Source: Marinoscillum pacificum (GTDB lineage Bacteria > Bacteroidota > Bacteroidia > Cytophagales > Cyclobacteriaceae). From it: a DNA stretch of 64,000 bases. Location of the stretch: assembly GCF_024714495.1 (NCBI RefSeq), contig NZ_JAMZMJ010000013.1, forward strand, positions 62,001-126,000, in the 5' to 3' direction. The translations under genes were made by a program, and so were the position numbers. The notes beneath the pieces were generated by a model that was not told the origin of the DNA, made no database searches, and worked only from the letters and a program-made list of their open reading frames with translations. This document shows positions 50,736 to 60,821 of the stretch, piece by piece; positions within the stretch are counted from its first letter, which is position 1; every line of letters starts with the position of its first letter.

Positions 50736-51446
50736 ATGAAACGACTAATCACTACACTAAAAACCAAATGGCCAGAATACTTCTTTGAGATATTTGTGCT
50801 GGTCATCGGTATCTATGGAGCCTTGGAGCTCGAAAACTGGAATGAAGATCAGAAACGGCAGAAGGACGAAATAGAAATGTTAGGTGAAATTGCCAATAGC
50901 CTGGAGCAATCCTTATCCAGGATTGATAACACGATGGGTTTTATGAATCAGAATATTGAGCAGCTTCACCTCATTGGATCCTATATCGAAAATGGCTCTG
51001 CCTATGATGAGGATTTTTCTAAGGCTCTAGCAGCAATTGGCACTGGCTCAAGTATGGAGTTTGACCAGTCAGCTTATGAAAATCTGAAAGTAAAGGGACT
51101 TGATTTGATCTCAAATGAAAACCTCAGAAGAAAAATCATTGCTACCTATGAAAACGAAATCGCTTATTTGGAAAAATATGTACACCTCACTTATGAGAGG
51201 ATACATAAAAATGCAGAATCTGTCCTGGGAATGCATAATTCTGAAGTATTCATTCAAAAGGATCCATTTGCGATATGTATTATTCCTAATAACTATGAAG
51301 AGCTTATCAAAAGTCGAGAATTCAAAAATACCGTAACTCATGTAGAAGCTATAAATGTGTTTTTCATTGAATATTTGGTGAGTTATAGAAATAGCATTGA
51401 TTCGGTAAGAGTTAATACTCAATCAGAAATACTCAGATTAAAATAA
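50736..51446 (+). CDS. DUF6090-family membrane protein, shorter paralogue
   Basis: A 236-residue protein. The N-terminus contains EYFFEIFVLVIGIYGALELENWNE, one membrane helix ending in the WNE motif of the family, followed by a helical soluble domain (EIEMLGEIANSLEQSL). It follows the first DUF6090 gene closely and its stop overlaps the ATG of a decayed copy (TAATG). Function unknown. Confidence 0.7.
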   Translation: MKRLITTLKTKWPEYFFEIFVLVIGIYGALELENWNEDQKRQKDEIEMLGEIANSLEQSLSRIDNTMGFMNQNIEQLHLIGSYIENGSAYDEDFSKALAAIGTGSSMEFDQSAYENLKVKGLDLISNENLRRKIIATYENEIAYLEKYVHLTYERIHKNAESVLGMHNSEVFIQKDPFAICIIPNNYEELIKSREFKNTVTHVEAINVFFIEYLVSYRNSIDSVRVNTQSEILRLK

Positions 51447-51590
51447 TGCAGCGACTAATCACTACACTAAAAACCAAAAGGCCGGAAGCGGCAAACGGAT
51501 GAAATAGAAATGCTGGGCGAAATAGCTAGTAGTCTATAACAAATTATCCAGAGTTGATTTTGCAATTGGATACTGCCCAGATTAATGATT
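51446..51590 (+). pseudogene. decayed third DUF6090 copy
   Basis: The first 45 bases are nearly identical to the start of the gene at 50736 (ACTAATCACTACACTAAAAA in both). At about 51490 the match jumps to the equivalent of 50855 of the parent, a deletion of about 77 bases that removes the membrane helix and shifts the frame, then continues (GAAATAGAAATG) and fades by about 51575. A stop (TAA) appears soon after. This is a truncated remnant of a tandem duplication. The rest of the gap to 51735 shows no gene. Confidence 0.75.
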
Positions 51591-54341: not shown

Positions 54342-54590
54342 ATGTCTACAAAACTAACATTGTCTATTGATGAAGAAGTAGTTCGTAAGGCGAAGGAATA
54401 TTCAAAAGCCAGCGGACGAAGCCTTTCTAGTTTAATAGAGTCCTACTTAATTGGTTTGACCTCTTCTGGAGATGCAAATAATGAAGTAAGTACTCCGTTG
54501 ACATCTAGATTACTTGGATCCATCAAAGGAAATGGTTCTGTAGATATTGAAAAAGTACTAACTGATAATTGGAAAGCCACTGATGATTAA
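54342..54590 (+). CDS. DUF6364-like antitoxin
   Basis: An 82-residue protein whose first half, KLTLSIDEEVVRKAKEYSKASGRSLSSLIESYL, is a ribbon-helix-helix DNA-binding domain of the DUF6364 antitoxin kind; the second half is the toxin-binding tail. It overlaps the PIN-domain gene by 8 bases and has a strong promoter directly before it. As in other RHH antitoxins it should repress its own promoter and neutralise the toxin (family knowledge). Confidence 0.8.
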   Translation: MSTKLTLSIDEEVVRKAKEYSKASGRSLSSLIESYLIGLTSSGDANNEVSTPLTSRLLGSIKGNGSVDIEKVLTDNWKATDD

Positions 54591-54993
54591 AGCGTTTATT
54601 GATCCAGACCTGATACTTGAGTTTTTAATGGATAAGCAGCCTCAATCAAGAGAATCTGCTAAGATATTTACATTGGCTGAGCGTAACGAAGTGAAGCTTT
54701 TGGTTTCAGCACAGGCGTTCAGTAATCTGTATTTGATCCTAAAGCAATATGCGAGCCATGAGAAGGTGGTAGAGAAACTACAGCTCTTAACGCAACTAGT
54801 AGAAGTAGGGACTTTGGATCAAAAAGCCGTCTTAAGTGCACTAAATTCTAACTTTAATAACCTGATAGATGGCATTCAGAATTATTGTGTGGAAAGTAAT
54901 AACGTAAAAGTGTTAATTACTCGGCGACATAAGGATTACAAGAATAGTGGTTTGTCTATCATGAGTCCTGCACTTTTTCTAGAAATGGTCTAG
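54583..54993 (+). CDS. PIN-domain toxin-like protein, altered active site
   Basis: A 136-residue VapC-like ribonuclease homologue. FIDPDLILEFLMD keeps the first Asp of the PIN active site but has DPD in place of the usual DTN. The region normally reading DFEDAIQ reads NLIDGIQ, so the conserved Glu is replaced by Ile, and VLITRRHKDYKNS covers the last motif. The protein may be weakly active or inactive as a nuclease. It is paired with the DUF6364-like antitoxin and overlaps the convergent DUF58 gene by 4 bases. Confidence 0.75.
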   Translation: MIKAFIDPDLILEFLMDKQPQSRESAKIFTLAERNEVKLLVSAQAFSNLYLILKQYASHEKVVEKLQLLTQLVEVGTLDQKAVLSALNSNFNNLIDGIQNYCVESNNVKVLITRRHKDYKNSGLSIMSPALFLEMV

Positions 54994-56066: not shown

Positions 56067-56414
56067 GTGGAAGAGAATAAGGAAAAAGGGAGAGACGAGA
56101 TTTATTCTGAGCGTGTGAGAGCGGGAAAGAGAACCTATTTTTTTGATGTGAAGTCTACTAGATCAAACGATTATTACTTGACAATCACTGAAAGCAAAAG
56201 AAGGTTCAAAGATGACGGCTTCTTCTATGAAAAACATAAAATCTTTTTGTACAAAGAGGATTTTCACAAATTCCTCGAGGCACTAAACGAAACTGTAAAT
56301 CACGTAAAATCAGAATTGCTACCAGATGTCGATTTTACACAATTTGAGAATGAAGAGTCTGATGCGGAAGAAATGAAAATCGCCGATGAGGATTCTGATC
56401 TTAAGTGGGATTAA
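56067..56414 (+). CDS. PUR-alpha-like nucleic acid-binding protein (DUF3276)
   Basis: A 115-residue protein starting with GTG. ERVRAGKRTYFFDVKSTRSNDYYLTITESKRRF is the single PUR repeat of Bacteroidota DUF3276 proteins, which dimerise to bind single-stranded DNA or RNA. The acidic tail (ENEESDAEEMKIADEDSD) is usual. It has its own terminator. Role probably in RNA metabolism or stress. Confidence 0.85.
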   Translation: MEENKEKGRDEIYSERVRAGKRTYFFDVKSTRSNDYYLTITESKRRFKDDGFFYEKHKIFLYKEDFHKFLEALNETVNHVKSELLPDVDFTQFENEESDAEEMKIADEDSDLKWD

Positions 56415-56469: not shown

Positions 56470-57561
56470 ATGAATCGTACACTGGCCGCTATTATCGGAT
56501 TCGTTTTGTTACTAGGTGTAGCTATTTGGTATTTCTCTACCATTTTTGCTTACCTGACTATTTCGATAGTATTAGCCACCGTCTTGCGGCCATTAACTAA
56601 TCAGATCAATCGCTTTCAAGTATTCGGAGGAAAGATTCCACGATTTATCGCCATTATTACTTCTTACGCGGTGGTTGTTGCAGTGCTATCTCTATTCGTA
56701 TTGCTTTTTGTTCCTTTGATCTCTGAGCAAATTGAAGTACTCAGTACGCTCAATTTCAATGTGGTTTATGATTCAATGGTAGCACCATTGAAGTGGTTTG
56801 AGCAATACCTCGTTACGAATCATCTCACCGAGCAGGAGCCCGGTTTTATTGTCGATTCTACCAGACAAGGACTTCTTAAATTCATTCAAGGCATCAATTT
56901 TACAGATGTCGTTAATCAGTTGCTTAGTTTCACTGGGAGTTTCTTTGTGGGAGTGCTGGCCGTAACTTTCATCACATTCTTTTTGCTCTATGAAAACGGC
57001 TTGATCCGAAGACAGATCATTGCATTAATTCCCAATCAATATTTTGAGGTATTCATTTCAGCACTGTATAAGATCGAGCGATTACTTTCCAATTTCTTGC
57101 TTGGCATTCTGTTTCAGATGTTTTCCATATTCAGTTTGGCGTCGATTGGGTTATCAATAGCTGGAGTGAATTATGCGGTAACAATTGCGGTTTTTGCAGC
57201 CATTGCTAATTTGATTCCGTATTTAGGGCCATTGCTTGGAGGTAGTTTTGGTATTTTGGTGGCTTTTAGTACTTCTGGAGATTTTTCGTTTAGCAATGAG
57301 AACATCATTTTGATAGTCAAAGTCTTTTCAGTTTTTGCAGCTGTTCAAGCCATCGATAACATTGTCTTACAGCCACTTATTTTCTCGAAAAGTGTGAAAG
57401 CGCACCCTTTAGAAATATTTGTCATTATTTTTGTGGGCGCAACCATAGCCGGGATTCCGGGGATGGTAGCAGCTATTCCGGTGTATACTGTGTTAAGAGT
57501 CTCATCTACAGAGATTTATGCTGGATTTAATCAATACAGAGTATTTAAAAGTAAGAGCTGA
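56470..57561 (+). CDS. AI-2E family transporter, second copy
   Basis: A 363-residue membrane protein with about eight helices and the family motif NLIPYLGPLLGGSFGILVAFS, then AVQAIDNIVLQPLIFSKSVKAHPLEIFVIIFVGATIAGIPGMVAAIP. It is a distant relative of the protein at 30364. Four bases separate it from ychF, so they likely form one message. Substrate unknown. Confidence 0.8.
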   Translation: MNRTLAAIIGFVLLLGVAIWYFSTIFAYLTISIVLATVLRPLTNQINRFQVFGGKIPRFIAIITSYAVVVAVLSLFVLLFVPLISEQIEVLSTLNFNVVYDSMVAPLKWFEQYLVTNHLTEQEPGFIVDSTRQGLLKFIQGINFTDVVNQLLSFTGSFFVGVLAVTFITFFLLYENGLIRRQIIALIPNQYFEVFISALYKIERLLSNFLLGILFQMFSIFSLASIGLSIAGVNYAVTIAVFAAIANLIPYLGPLLGGSFGILVAFSTSGDFSFSNENIILIVKVFSVFAAVQAIDNIVLQPLIFSKSVKAHPLEIFVIIFVGATIAGIPGMVAAIPVYTVLRVSSTEIYAGFNQYRVFKSKS

Positions 57562-57564
57562 TCT

Positions 57565-58662
57565 ATGGGATTAAGATGTGGAATTGTAGGGCTTCCGAAT
57601 GTTGGAAAATCCACTTTGTTTAACGCGCTATCGAATGCTAAGGCAGAAGCGGCAAACTTTCCATTTTGTACGATTGAACCAAACGTAGGTGTGATAACAG
57701 TGCCAGATGAGCGTTTGGATGTGTTGAAAGGACTTGTAAATCCTCAAAAAGTAGTTCCAACCGTCATCGAGTTTGTGGACATAGCAGGATTGGTAAAAGG
57801 GGCAAGTAAAGGTGAAGGACTAGGTAATCAGTTTCTTGCAAACATCCGTGAAGTGGATGCGATCATTCACGTAGTAAGATGTTTTGAAAATGACAATATT
57901 GTACACGTTGAAGGACGTGTAGACCCGATAGAAGATAAGGATGTAATTGATACAGAACTTCAATTCAAAGATTTGGAGTCTGTTGATAAAAGAATACAGC
58001 GAGTAGAGAAAATAGCCAAGACTGGTGACGCCAAGGCTAAAAAGGAATTGGAGACCTTAGCGGCATTTAAAAAGCACCTGGAGTCTGGTCAGAATGCTCG
58101 TGCTTTGGAGATGGACAAAGAAGAACGTTCTGTAATTCGTGATTTGCAGTTACTTACAGATAAGCCAATTATCTATGTAGCGAACGTGGAGGAAGAGAAT
58201 GTGAATTCTGGAAATGAGCACAGCAAGAAATTTGAAGAGTTTGTTGCTCCAGAAAATGCTCAGGTTGTAAAAGTGTCTGCAGCGTTGGAAGCTCAAATTG
58301 CTGAATTTGACGATGAAGATGATAAGGCGATGTTCCTTGATGAATATGGACTGACTGAATCAGGTTTGAACCGTTTGATCAAAGCGGCTTATTCATTACT
58401 TGATTTGATTACCTACTTTACCGCAGGGGTGACGGAAGTTAGAGCATGGACGATCAAAAGAGGATGGAAAGCACCGCAAGCTGCGGGTGTGATTCACACG
58501 GACTTTGAACGTGGATTTATCAAGGCAGAAGTGATAAAACTTGCTGATTATGAGCAGTATGGATCAGAAAATGCTTGTAAAGAAGCTGGAAAGCTATCCA
58601 TAGAAGGTAAAGAATATGTGGTGCATGACGGTGATATAATGCACTTCAGGTTCAACGTGTAA
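57565..58662 (+). CDS. ychF: redox-regulated ATPase YchF
   Basis: A 365-residue OBG-like P-loop protein. GLPNVGKSTLFNALS is the nucleotide loop, FPFCTIEPNVGVI the switch region, and GAGKS-type specificity is that of YchF, which prefers ATP. DIAGLVKGASKGEGLGNQFLANIREVDAIIHVVRCF and the C-terminal TGS region (YFTAGVTEVRAWTIKRG) match. It binds ribosomes and acts in stress responses. It lies directly upstream of the Cas6 homologue (77 bases). Confidence 0.95.
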   Translation: MGLRCGIVGLPNVGKSTLFNALSNAKAEAANFPFCTIEPNVGVITVPDERLDVLKGLVNPQKVVPTVIEFVDIAGLVKGASKGEGLGNQFLANIREVDAIIHVVRCFENDNIVHVEGRVDPIEDKDVIDTELQFKDLESVDKRIQRVEKIAKTGDAKAKKELETLAAFKKHLESGQNARALEMDKEERSVIRDLQLLTDKPIIYVANVEEENVNSGNEHSKKFEEFVAPENAQVVKVSAALEAQIAEFDDEDDKAMFLDEYGLTESGLNRLIKAAYSLLDLITYFTAGVTEVRAWTIKRGWKAPQAAGVIHTDFERGFIKAEVIKLADYEQYGSENACKEAGKLSIEGKEYVVHDGDIMHFRFNV

Positions 58663-58739
58663 GTTTTTCGATAAATAGCCGAACAAAAAATCTTAACACT
58701 GTGTTGCGGTCGTAGTTATATTTTTTAAAGACTTGTGCC

Positions 58740-59549
58740 GTGAGAATAAGAATAACGTTCAATGTCAATAATAGAGGAGGACTGGTTCCTTTTCATCATC
58801 AATATCTGATTTCTGAGGTTATCAGAAATATTTTGGAAGAGGATAATTCCGATGAATTCAGGAATTATCCTTTTTATAGTTTCTCTGGATTAAAAGGTCA
58901 AACCAGACTTAGCAGAAATGGTTTGCGTTATAATTCTAAGAAAGTGACTATTGTTGTTTCCTCTGTTAGTGAACCATTTATTAGTCACCTGGTTGGATTG
59001 CTTTTAAAGCAGGATGCGATACAAATTGCTGATCTTAACATTACTCCAGAGCTTGCTGAAGAGGAAGTATCAGTAGGTTTGGATGGAGAAGCAAAATTTT
59101 TATGTATAAGTCCGCTAGTAGTTATCTCTCCAGAAGATGATCCAGCTTCAGCCAAAGAATTCATAGACCCGACATCGGATACCTTCTCAGATTATCTTTT
59201 TGAAGCCACGATCAATCGAATGACGAGTTATGGTATTGATGTAGATTCGATCCCAAATATTCAAAAATTTCAACTTGTTCCTGATAAAGAGTATTTGAAT
59301 AAGCTAAAATCTTCAAATAAGAAGTTTGCCAGAATTTATCCAATGTACAAGCATGGTGAGAAGCTGGAAGTTCGTGGATACACGTTTCCATTCACACTTT
59401 TTGCTGCGCCGGAGGTACAAGCTTTTGTGTACACCTGTGGTCTTGGCTCCATGTGCTGCAAAGGGTTCGGAATGCTGGATATTGCCAACTCCAATCCCGT
59501 GGAGCGTACAGTTCCTTTCATGAAAAAGTCAGAACTGGTTTCTGCTTGA
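58740..59549 (+). CDS. cas6: CRISPR-associated endoribonuclease Cas6 homologue (orphan)
   Basis: A 269-residue protein beginning with GTG. The opening RIRITFNVNN, followed by a loop with GGLVPFHHQYLISEVIRNIL, is the Cas6 N-terminal ferredoxin-like fold. His19 and His20 lie where the catalytic His of many Cas6 enzymes is found. The C-terminal glycine-rich loop (GLGSMCCKGFGML, residues 234-246) is the family's diagnostic GxGxxxxxGxG element. No CRISPR array and no other cas gene are present within this window, so it is an orphan here. Its 3' end overlaps the convergent plug gene by 21 bases. Either it processes arrays located elsewhere or it has been recruited to another RNA. Confidence 0.8.
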   Translation: MRIRITFNVNNRGGLVPFHHQYLISEVIRNILEEDNSDEFRNYPFYSFSGLKGQTRLSRNGLRYNSKKVTIVVSSVSEPFISHLVGLLLKQDAIQIADLNITPELAEEEVSVGLDGEAKFLCISPLVVISPEDDPASAKEFIDPTSDTFSDYLFEATINRMTSYGIDVDSIPNIQKFQLVPDKEYLNKLKSSNKKFARIYPMYKHGEKLEVRGYTFPFTLFAAPEVQAFVYTCGLGSMCCKGFGMLDIANSNPVERTVPFMKKSELVSA

Positions 59550-60821
59550 TATCAAACGGTATCCGATTAGCTGATCATAATTGTTGAAAGGACTTCTGTA
59601 ATACACCAGAATCTCATAATTATTGATGGCTTGAAAATGGCTGCCTTCAAAATAGGTGACAGGTAGTGACTCACTGCTTACCCAATACAGGTAATCATAA
59701 TACCCCTGTTTCAACAAAAGTTGACCTTTGTAGCTTCCTACGGCTTCATCATAATACATTCTATTATTTGGAGATAGATCCCAGTTATTGTGTCTTCCTG
59801 CTATATAAACGTCTCCATTGATAGGTTCTGTGATGAGTTCAAAGTGTACTTTGATATATTCACTTTCGAGTTGGCTGTCATTAGGATCTCTATTTTCCAG
59901 ATAGTATCCGCCATTCATATCATCCTGAAATTGGGTGTAAGCCAGGCCTTTTCTGGATTTGTCGAAGCTAAGGAAAGCATCCACTTCATTTTCCTTATAT
60001 TGAACATTGGCGACATTCATTCCACGATATTCAGTGGATCTGAGGTCAAAAAAGCGGAACTCATTCCAGGCCGGAAAATTATTTTCCCCATTAAAATGTT
60101 CGTAAATCAGCAATCCTTCAGACATTCTAATGTTGGTAGGTTGTAATCCGGTTATTTCTGTGTGCCAGTTGTGATTTTGTAACACGGTTACCTTGATGTC
60201 ATTATATGGGTTGATATTATCCAGGCCGTCATACTGCACTTGAAATTCAATTTGTTGATTTTGATTTCTTTTGGAGACCATGTTGCTGGCTCGTACAGAA
60301 CCTTCTATAGATACACCACCATCGTATACTAAAAACCTTCGGGTGAAGAGTAAATCTGATTTATCACTGTTTCTATATGCAACTAAAATGTAATTTCCTG
60401 ATTTTGTGGGGGTTGGAAGTGTTGCGCCATACTTCACATATTGCTCTCGAGCATTCTGGGAAAAATTGTATTCATCAACAGAGAACTCATTGTATTCATC
60501 TAAAAATTGAATGTCGTTAAGGTTTGATTTTCTCCAGTCATAGTTGCAATGAATGTATCGTACATTGACATAATCGGCGTTTTTTTGGAGTAAATCAAAT
60601 TCTAGTCGTAATCCGGATGTATTCGAAATCGGAAGGGTAGGATATTGTAGAGTGTTTGATAGATTTTCTCCATAAGGATACAATTGGACCATTCCAATAG
60701 CTGGCTCATAATTTAAATCGTCATGTACGAGTTTTTTTTGAGATTTTGTATCAGTAGTCGTACTAACTGGCACACAACTTGCTAGTACTAAGCTTATCAT
60801 AATGGATGGAAGATATTTCAT
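59529..60821 (-). CDS. T9SS plug-domain lipoprotein (DUF5103)
   Basis: A 430-residue lipoprotein (lipobox LASC). The family, DUF5103, includes the Plug protein that closes the SprA translocon of the type IX secretion system. Segments such as GRHNNWDLSPNNRMYYDEAVGSYKGQLLLKQGYYDYLYWV and NTLQYPTLPISN match it. The window also contains a T9SS cargo protein, which agrees with a working system. The sprA and sprE genes are not here. Confidence 0.85.
   Translation of the reverse strand: MKYLPSIMISLVLASCVPVSTTTDTKSQKKLVHDDLNYEPAIGMVQLYPYGENLSNTLQYPTLPISNTSGLRLEFDLLQKNADYVNVRYIHCNYDWRKSNLNDIQFLDEYNEFSVDEYNFSQNAREQYVKYGATLPTPTKSGNYILVAYRNSDKSDLLFTRRFLVYDGGVSIEGSVRASNMVSKRNQNQQIEFQVQYDGLDNINPYNDIKVTVLQNHNWHTEITGLQPTNIRMSEGLLIYEHFNGENNFPAWNEFRFFDLRSTEYRGMNVANVQYKENEVDAFLSFDKSRKGLAYTQFQDDMNGGYYLENRDPNDSQLESEYIKVHFELITEPINGDVYIAGRHNNWDLSPNNRMYYDEAVGSYKGQLLLKQGYYDYLYWVSSESLPVTYFEGSHFQAINNYEILVYYRSPFNNYDQLIGYRLISSRNQF

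Follow-up and report, generated by a model that had tools for sequence, protein, structure and literature searches.

A resident Cas6-family gene of Cytophagales chromosomes that lacks the usual active-site residues and often occurs in genomes without CRISPR genes

The window analyzed here, a stretch of DNA of 64,000 nucleotides, carries a Cas6-family gene on the forward strand at 58740..59549. This gene, the resident cas6, is a single open reading frame with a GTG start that encodes 269 amino acids. Three genes precede it on the same strand. A DUF3276 gene (56067..56414), whose product is presumably PUR-like, has a conserved GTG start and is often found three genes upstream of cas6; an AI-2E family transporter gene (56470..57561) is often found two genes upstream; and ychF (57565..58662), recognized by its YchF-GTPase_C domain, is the conserved upstream neighbor. 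The leader between ychF and cas6 (58663..58739, forward strand) contains a T-run and is a candidate regulatory site. On the reverse strand, the gene of a T9SS plug protein (59529..60821) is convergent to cas6. An earlier note on this DNA had placed the gene behind ychF and in overlap with the plug gene, and this placement holds, with a 77 nt gap on one side and 21 nt shared with the 3' end of cas6 on the other. The window holds no CRISPR array according to the same note, and a finder that requires at least three exact 20-mers spaced 50-90 nt apart also detects none there. An Rfam search gave zero matches at the gathering score. Elsewhere in the window, a DUF6364 protein with a weak ribbon-helix-helix match is followed by a PIN_3 protein (54342-54993), which is likely a toxin-antitoxin pair. 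The region 50736-51542 holds two direct-repeat pairs of 65 and 42 nt that are 74% and 90% alike and lie 633 and 710 nt apart, respectively.

The product of the resident gene scores 69.2 bits against Pfam Cas_Cas6_C, whose cut-off is 23 (E 7.5e-19), and matches PADLOC Cas6b with an E value of 1.4e-30 over residues 1-249. The match to NCBIfam cas_cas6 (TIGR01877) reaches 58.2 bits, which is 0.45 below the cut-off of 58.65. An AlphaFold2 model, for which 17 relatives were aligned, reaches a mean pLDDT of 88, and its nine top matches among solved structures are all Cas6 or Cas6-related proteins, with 3qjj, 5yi6 and 3ufc first. According to the model, the protein has two RAMP domains, and the fold matches span nearly its full length. 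The earlier note had recognized the gene as Cas6 and proposed a search with Cas6 profiles; the significant Pfam and PADLOC matches, with NCBIfam narrowly under its cut-off, and the matches to Cas6 folds bear this recognition out. Its C-terminal glycine-rich loop, also named in that note, is kept in the alignment and conserved in the clade described below. The stretch 58740-59549 is a full-length Cas6 homologue.

The resident gene is widely distributed in the sampled order, named here after the NCBI placement of Marinoscillum in Cytophagales. At E < 1e-30, it is present in 144 of 291 sampled Cytophagales genomes, the weakest carrier having an E value of 3.9e-40. Any match at all occurs in 150 of the 291, and the remaining six lie at 6.5e-10 or weaker. 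Identity among the resident Cas6 proteins of the order sample is 38-61%. A tree of 156 Cas6 sequences, made up of 115 from carriers (one genome, G037, twice), 20 encoded at further loci of the order and 21 taken from the rest of the phylum, recovers the carriers as one exact split with support 1.0. Among 395 genomes of the phylum, strong matches occur only in nine genomes of the window's own family, the others being 1.4e-22 or weaker. The genome of the window is 6.4 Mb in size, in 32 contigs, with a completeness of 100, and the nearest named relatives of its resident Cas6 are two. One, 72% identical, belongs to a Marinoscillum MAG; the other, 78% identical, is encoded at a Marinoscillum-like locus on a contig labelled as a Rickettsiales MAG (L051), which is probably mis-binned. 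The word "orphan" in the earlier note understates a gene that is conserved in about half of the order genomes sampled.

Two genomes of the same family have the slot without cas6: G268, with the order DUF3276, permease, ychF, plug, and G244, with DUF3276, ychF, plug. The gene is absent from other families too and is therefore dispensable. Another lone Cas6, different from the resident one and lacking the catalytic LH histidine, is encoded in G049 (L177:5545-6360), two genes from a beta-lactamase-family protein; that genome has no cas1, no RAMPs and no cas3 over cut-off. A viral origin of the resident Cas6 was considered and rejected, as two peptide patterns confirmed no relative in viral contigs and the one weak PHROG match (E 3.5e-4) is of unknown function.

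Conservation of the ychF-cas6 neighborhood, a check proposed in the earlier note, is found in both sets of loci that were compared. Among 41 genome-sampled loci, ychF immediately precedes cas6 in 17, and the plug gene immediately follows it in 12; among 74 loci from a similarity list of named records, which is biased to near kin, the counts are 72 and 65. The DUF3276 gene and the AI-2E permease gene precede ychF at many carrier loci. The trees of cas6 and ychF agree extensively over 87 loci, with a Mantel r of 0.68 (the best of 999 shuffles reached 0.18) and 37 of 84 splits in common (at most 2 in 200 shuffles). Conflict with ychF is seen in 6 of the 34 well-supported splits of the cas6 tree. 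These results support mainly vertical inheritance of the resident cas6, with or without CRISPR genes. The gene is under strong purifying selection in close pairs: six of 11 such pairs yielded a dN/dS for cas6, in the range 0.010-0.031, none of these values being for the window's own gene, and ychF gives 0.016-0.029 where a value was obtained. Over long distances, cas6 outpaces YchF, with a median tree distance of 2.28 vs 0.81; between the window and L052, dN is 0.198 for cas6 vs 0.071 for ychF.

Inheritance of this kind bears on whether the protein could be a stand-alone defense or guard factor, such as a sensor or silencer of mobile-element RNA. Defense genes are usually patchy and mobile. 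Descent from Cas6 and the absence of the gene from some lineages are in keeping with such a role, but the resident gene follows the phylogeny of ychF and in many genomes has stayed next to it, and the two peptide patterns confirmed no relative among viral contigs. We consider a defense role very improbable.

The relation of the gene to CRISPR systems can be examined at the level of whole genomes. Whole-genome profile searches of the window genome detect no cas1, no RAMP and no cas3_core over cut-off, and the resident gene is the sole Cas_Cas6_C match there. Weak helicase-like matches to cas3_core occur in all 47 genomes searched. Arrays with the repeat start GTYRYAATCC, which is the type III form of the order and the one repeat start searched for, number zero in the whole window genome. 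The earlier note had suggested that the gene may serve a remote array; this is disfavored because the genome has no cas1, no RAMP, no cas3 over cut-off, no GTYRYAATCC array and no second Cas_Cas6_C gene. The other suggestion of that note, recruitment outside CRISPR, is supported by retention of the gene in the 144 carriers, 65 of which, including the window genome, have no cas1 match. Further searches of 47 of the 65 (completeness >=95, contamination <=3) find RAMPs in two and cas3_core over cut-off in one. Among the carrier loci L031-L130 and L180-L199, the exact 20-mer finder detects an array in L191 only.

Across the sample, CRISPR genes are nevertheless more frequent in genomes with the resident gene. 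A cas1 match is found in 79 of 144 carriers vs 33 of 147 non-carriers (odds ratio 4.2, p 1.2e-8, uncorrected for phylogeny), and RAMPs are found in 24 of 144 vs 8 of 147 (p 0.0025, likewise uncorrected, with carrier status assigned by eye). The non-carriers include small genomes of 1-2 Mb. The resident gene of G037 has a 21-copy array and cas1 at a distance of about 9-11 kb; the RAMPs and a Cas6b of this genome lie at 4.05 Mb. The higher frequencies speak for a shared crRNA processor that would take on the remote or borrowed arrays of incoming CRISPR systems with no cas6 of their own. In the same direction, a count by eye gives the resident gene as the sole Cas_Cas6_C match in 15 of the 24 RAMP carriers, and a second Cas_Cas6_C is missing from 13 of the 15 carriers whose cas1 is middling. 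Of these 13, 11 are RAMP genomes; the other two, G124 and G153, lack a RAMP match.

Most of these genomes turn out to have a Cas6 of another kind. In the fetched type III pieces, a Cas6b_N/Cas6b_C-type protein is present in at least 12 of the 15 RAMP carriers with a sole Cas_Cas6_C match, the other three being G031, G111 and G141. The Cas_Cas6_C-type profiles missed these proteins of type III loci. In a Pfam scan of 66 proteins from type III loci, eight have both Cas6b_N and Cas6b_C, and an iterated profile detects the Cas6b family in 12 of these 15 carriers as well as in G123 and G233, the two non-carriers that have RAMPs and no Cas_Cas6_C. Proteins of two of these carrier loci match type III effectors, III-B in G003 and III-A in G077, and the fetched stretches also contain cas1 and arrays. 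Service in trans to type III systems without a Cas6 was thus set aside for 12 of the 15, as the fetched loci contained Cas6b-type proteins. Subtype I-C as an explanation of a missing Cas6 was also rejected, with a Cas5d match in 0 of 18 genomes. Among the 29 carriers with a strong, I-B-like cas1 (E < 1e-80), 28 have a second Cas_Cas6_C, and the remaining one, G121, has a Cas6b. In the carriers with a weak, type II-like cas1, 32 of 35 have no second Cas_Cas6_C; type II CRISPR is not known to need a Cas6. Together with the absence of cas1 from 65 of the carriers and the occurrence of arrays with the type III repeat start in three genomes that do not have the resident gene, these counts make crRNA service in trans improbable.

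The repeat start GTCG(C/T)AATCC is common to arrays of type III-bearing genomes (L191, L201, L207, L208, L211, L215 and L217), and its reverse complement ends in ATTGCGAC, a repeat end that we take to be like the type III crRNA tag. It was considered as a sign of the resident enzyme and rejected, being shared with the three genomes without the gene. A looser repeat pattern is found in 18 of 291 genomes, three of them with a single match, and a reversed control pattern gives single matches in 8 genomes. At the G003 locus, the protein of L201:3657-4418 matches cas2 at residues 155-252 only and has about 154 extra N-terminal residues. In G225 (L178, 1-6597 and 6920-11730), a Cas_Cas6_C protein lies between an array of 64 copies of a 46-nt repeat and a protein of at least 1893 amino acids with DUF4011, AAA and REase MTES_1575 domains.

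The reference for the active site of Cas6 is PfuCas6, which uses Tyr31, His46 and Lys52 as catalytic residues (PMC3652601). When carriers and other Cas6 are aligned together, all 115 carrier sequences have a gap at the His46 column, where 38 of 41 other Cas6 have a histidine. Tyr31 is matched by tyrosine in none of the 115 vs 37 of the 41, and the Lys52 column holds lysine in 5 and arginine in 1 of the carriers vs lysine or arginine in 39 of the 41. The loop that bears the histidine is about 12 residues shorter in carriers, with a median of 26 vs 38, and scattered histidines occur in the shortened loop in 20 of 115. The window protein has a Lys52 of its own; it was rejected as the counterpart of the PfuCas6 lysine, whose alignment column corresponds to residue 44 here. 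The resident Cas6 is therefore probably not a canonical nuclease, as judged from its residues, and the term "endoribonuclease" used in the earlier note is unsupported. The loss of the triad is no proof of inactivity, since SsoCas6 is described as cleaving although it has no catalytic histidine (PMC3652601).

Other positions are strictly kept. His20, Gln21, Lys52, Gln54, Lys194, Lys195, Arg198 and Arg212 are invariant in all 115 carriers, although some of them, Gln21 for instance, are also frequent outside the clade, and His19 is present in 108. The invariant basic residues (His20, Lys52, Lys194, Lys195, Arg198 and Arg212) appear to stand beside the glycine-rich loop. The paired His19-His20, which the earlier note took as a mark of Cas6, are indeed present and conserved and they mark the clade, but they are not the canonical catalytic residues of Cas6. 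They could instead belong to a relocated active site, formed by His19 and His20 together with Lys52, of a specific endoribonuclease acting on host RNA. The conservation of these residues would suit such an enzyme, as would their position, helix 1 being predicted to begin at residue 20. The catalytic histidines of TtCas6e and PaCas6f likewise lie in helix 1, and SsoCas6 serves as a precedent for activity without the usual histidine (PMC3652601). On the other hand, all three triad positions of PfuCas6 are lost, and the histidine of the NHQ motif in archaeal Cas6 (5yi6, 3pkm) aligns with His20, yet PfuCas6 uses His46, so that His20 may have a structural role. The window leader folds no better than shuffles, and the window has no Rfam match. 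A relocated active site is unlikely on this evidence.

The 5' end of the gene is also unusual. At the residue aligned with the window start, 65 of 114 carriers have GTG, 37 have TTG and 9 have ATG; the remaining three, two with TTA and one with TCT, probably have a misplaced start. The frame runs on upstream in 13 of the 114, and the true start may therefore differ in these. All 20 CRISPR cas6 genes and all 82 ychF genes compared start with ATG. Among 36 non-redundant carriers, the start is GTG or TTG in 27 and ATG in 7. A T-run, defined as five T in a row in the 40 nt that precede the start, is present in 24 of these 36, with 6.5 expected by shuffling, and is missing in 12. The same run is found in 16 of 82 ychF, 2 of 20 CRISPR cas6 and 29 of 45 permease genes. 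The T-runs of the permease mostly follow hairpins and those of cas6 rarely do. The 30 nt before the T-run have a mean folding energy of -1.4 kcal/mol at cas6 vs -7.3 at the permease, and on this difference the U-run was rejected as a terminator of ychF. Two other candidates were also rejected. A structured RNA in the leader is not indicated by folding of the window leader alone, which is like that of shuffles (z 1.33 and 0.89), and promoter-like sites number 17 vs 15.9 in shuffles. The DUF3276 gene (56067-56414) starts with GTG in 74 of 76 relatives, and the best-scored other neighbors start mostly with ATG. It has no excess of T-runs despite its GTG starts; therefore, start codon and T-run need not share a cause. 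The GTG or TTG start and the unstructured U-run of cas6 would fit translational self-control.

Loss of the usual cutting residues in a gene that is kept even by species without detected CRISPR genes suggests repurposing for the cell's own RNA. We favor, with somewhat better than even confidence, a domesticated Cas6 that binds host RNA, is probably not a canonical nuclease and possibly controls its own translation. In this scenario, the gene would descend from a CRISPR-linked Cas6. Trees, synteny and counts support its fixation in an ancestral chromosome from which many Cytophagales inherited it, often directly behind ychF. The clade has lost the canonical tyrosine, histidine and lysine and has retained the basic residues beside the glycine-rich loop. 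The protein would most likely bind single-stranded host RNA in the manner of PhCas6nc, and one likely target would be its own leader, where binding could repress translation through the GTG or TTG start and the U-run. A broader version of the domesticated Cas6 is more tentative and rather doubtful: an order-wide post-transcriptional regulator that would bind U-rich host RNAs, repress itself through the same start and U-run, and form a unit with the DUF3276 protein and YchF.

These findings have practical and conceptual consequences. An annotation as "Cas6" in Cytophagales need not imply a CRISPR system. Cas6 proteins have been suggested to act as RNA chaperones as much as enzymes (PMC3652601). 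An order-wide clade of Cas6, often without CRISPR genes or the usual active site, makes this question testable, and it makes equally testable what Cas6 does outside CRISPR. Examples of CRISPR exaptation described in the literature concern derived systems, effectors and crRNAs (PMC8730458). Among the open-access matches listed for such a Cas6 or for these bacteria, judged by title or the start of the abstract, none deals with a lone, inactive or CRISPR-free Cas6.

Cas6 proteins with Cas_Cas6_C are also encoded in CRISPR loci of Cytophagales, most of which look I-B-like from the sizes of their genes; these proteins belong to the same Pfam family as the resident Cas6 and have the same glycine-rich loop. 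However, the 20 examples, which were chosen because of a Cas6 match, share a mean identity of 20% with the carriers, form a separate clade, have the histidine in 17 of 20 and start with ATG in 20 of 20. The Cas6b_N/Cas6b_C proteins of type III loci are Cas6 by name but belong to other Pfam families (PF17955 and PF17262). PfuCas6 (3pkm, 3i4h) has the same two-RAMP fold and glycine-rich loop, but it uses Tyr31, His46 and Lys52 (PMC3652601), positions that the resident clade has lost. SsoCas6 (4ill, 4ilm), matched by the model with an E value of 7.6e-10, likewise has neither the catalytic histidine nor Tyr31 (PMC3652601); it is an active crRNA processor that retains the lysine, whereas the lysine position is lost in the resident Cas6. 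Among the best fold matches of the model are two archaeal proteins that are 18-20% identical to the resident Cas6, namely PH0350 of Pyrococcus horikoshii (3qjj; E 2.7e-16, TM-score 0.72) and, from P. furiosus, a Cas6-related protein (3ufc; E 2.0e-15, TM-score 0.72). We take PH0350 to be the protein known as PhCas6nc. The latter is an inactive, RNA-binding relative of PfuCas6 whose cleft between the domains grips about the first 10 nt of unstructured RNA (PMC3727216). With this protein as the probable top fold match, we read the resident Cas6 as a putative binder of single-stranded RNA. By analogy with PhCas6nc, the predicted fold and the loss of catalytic residues fit binding without cleavage.
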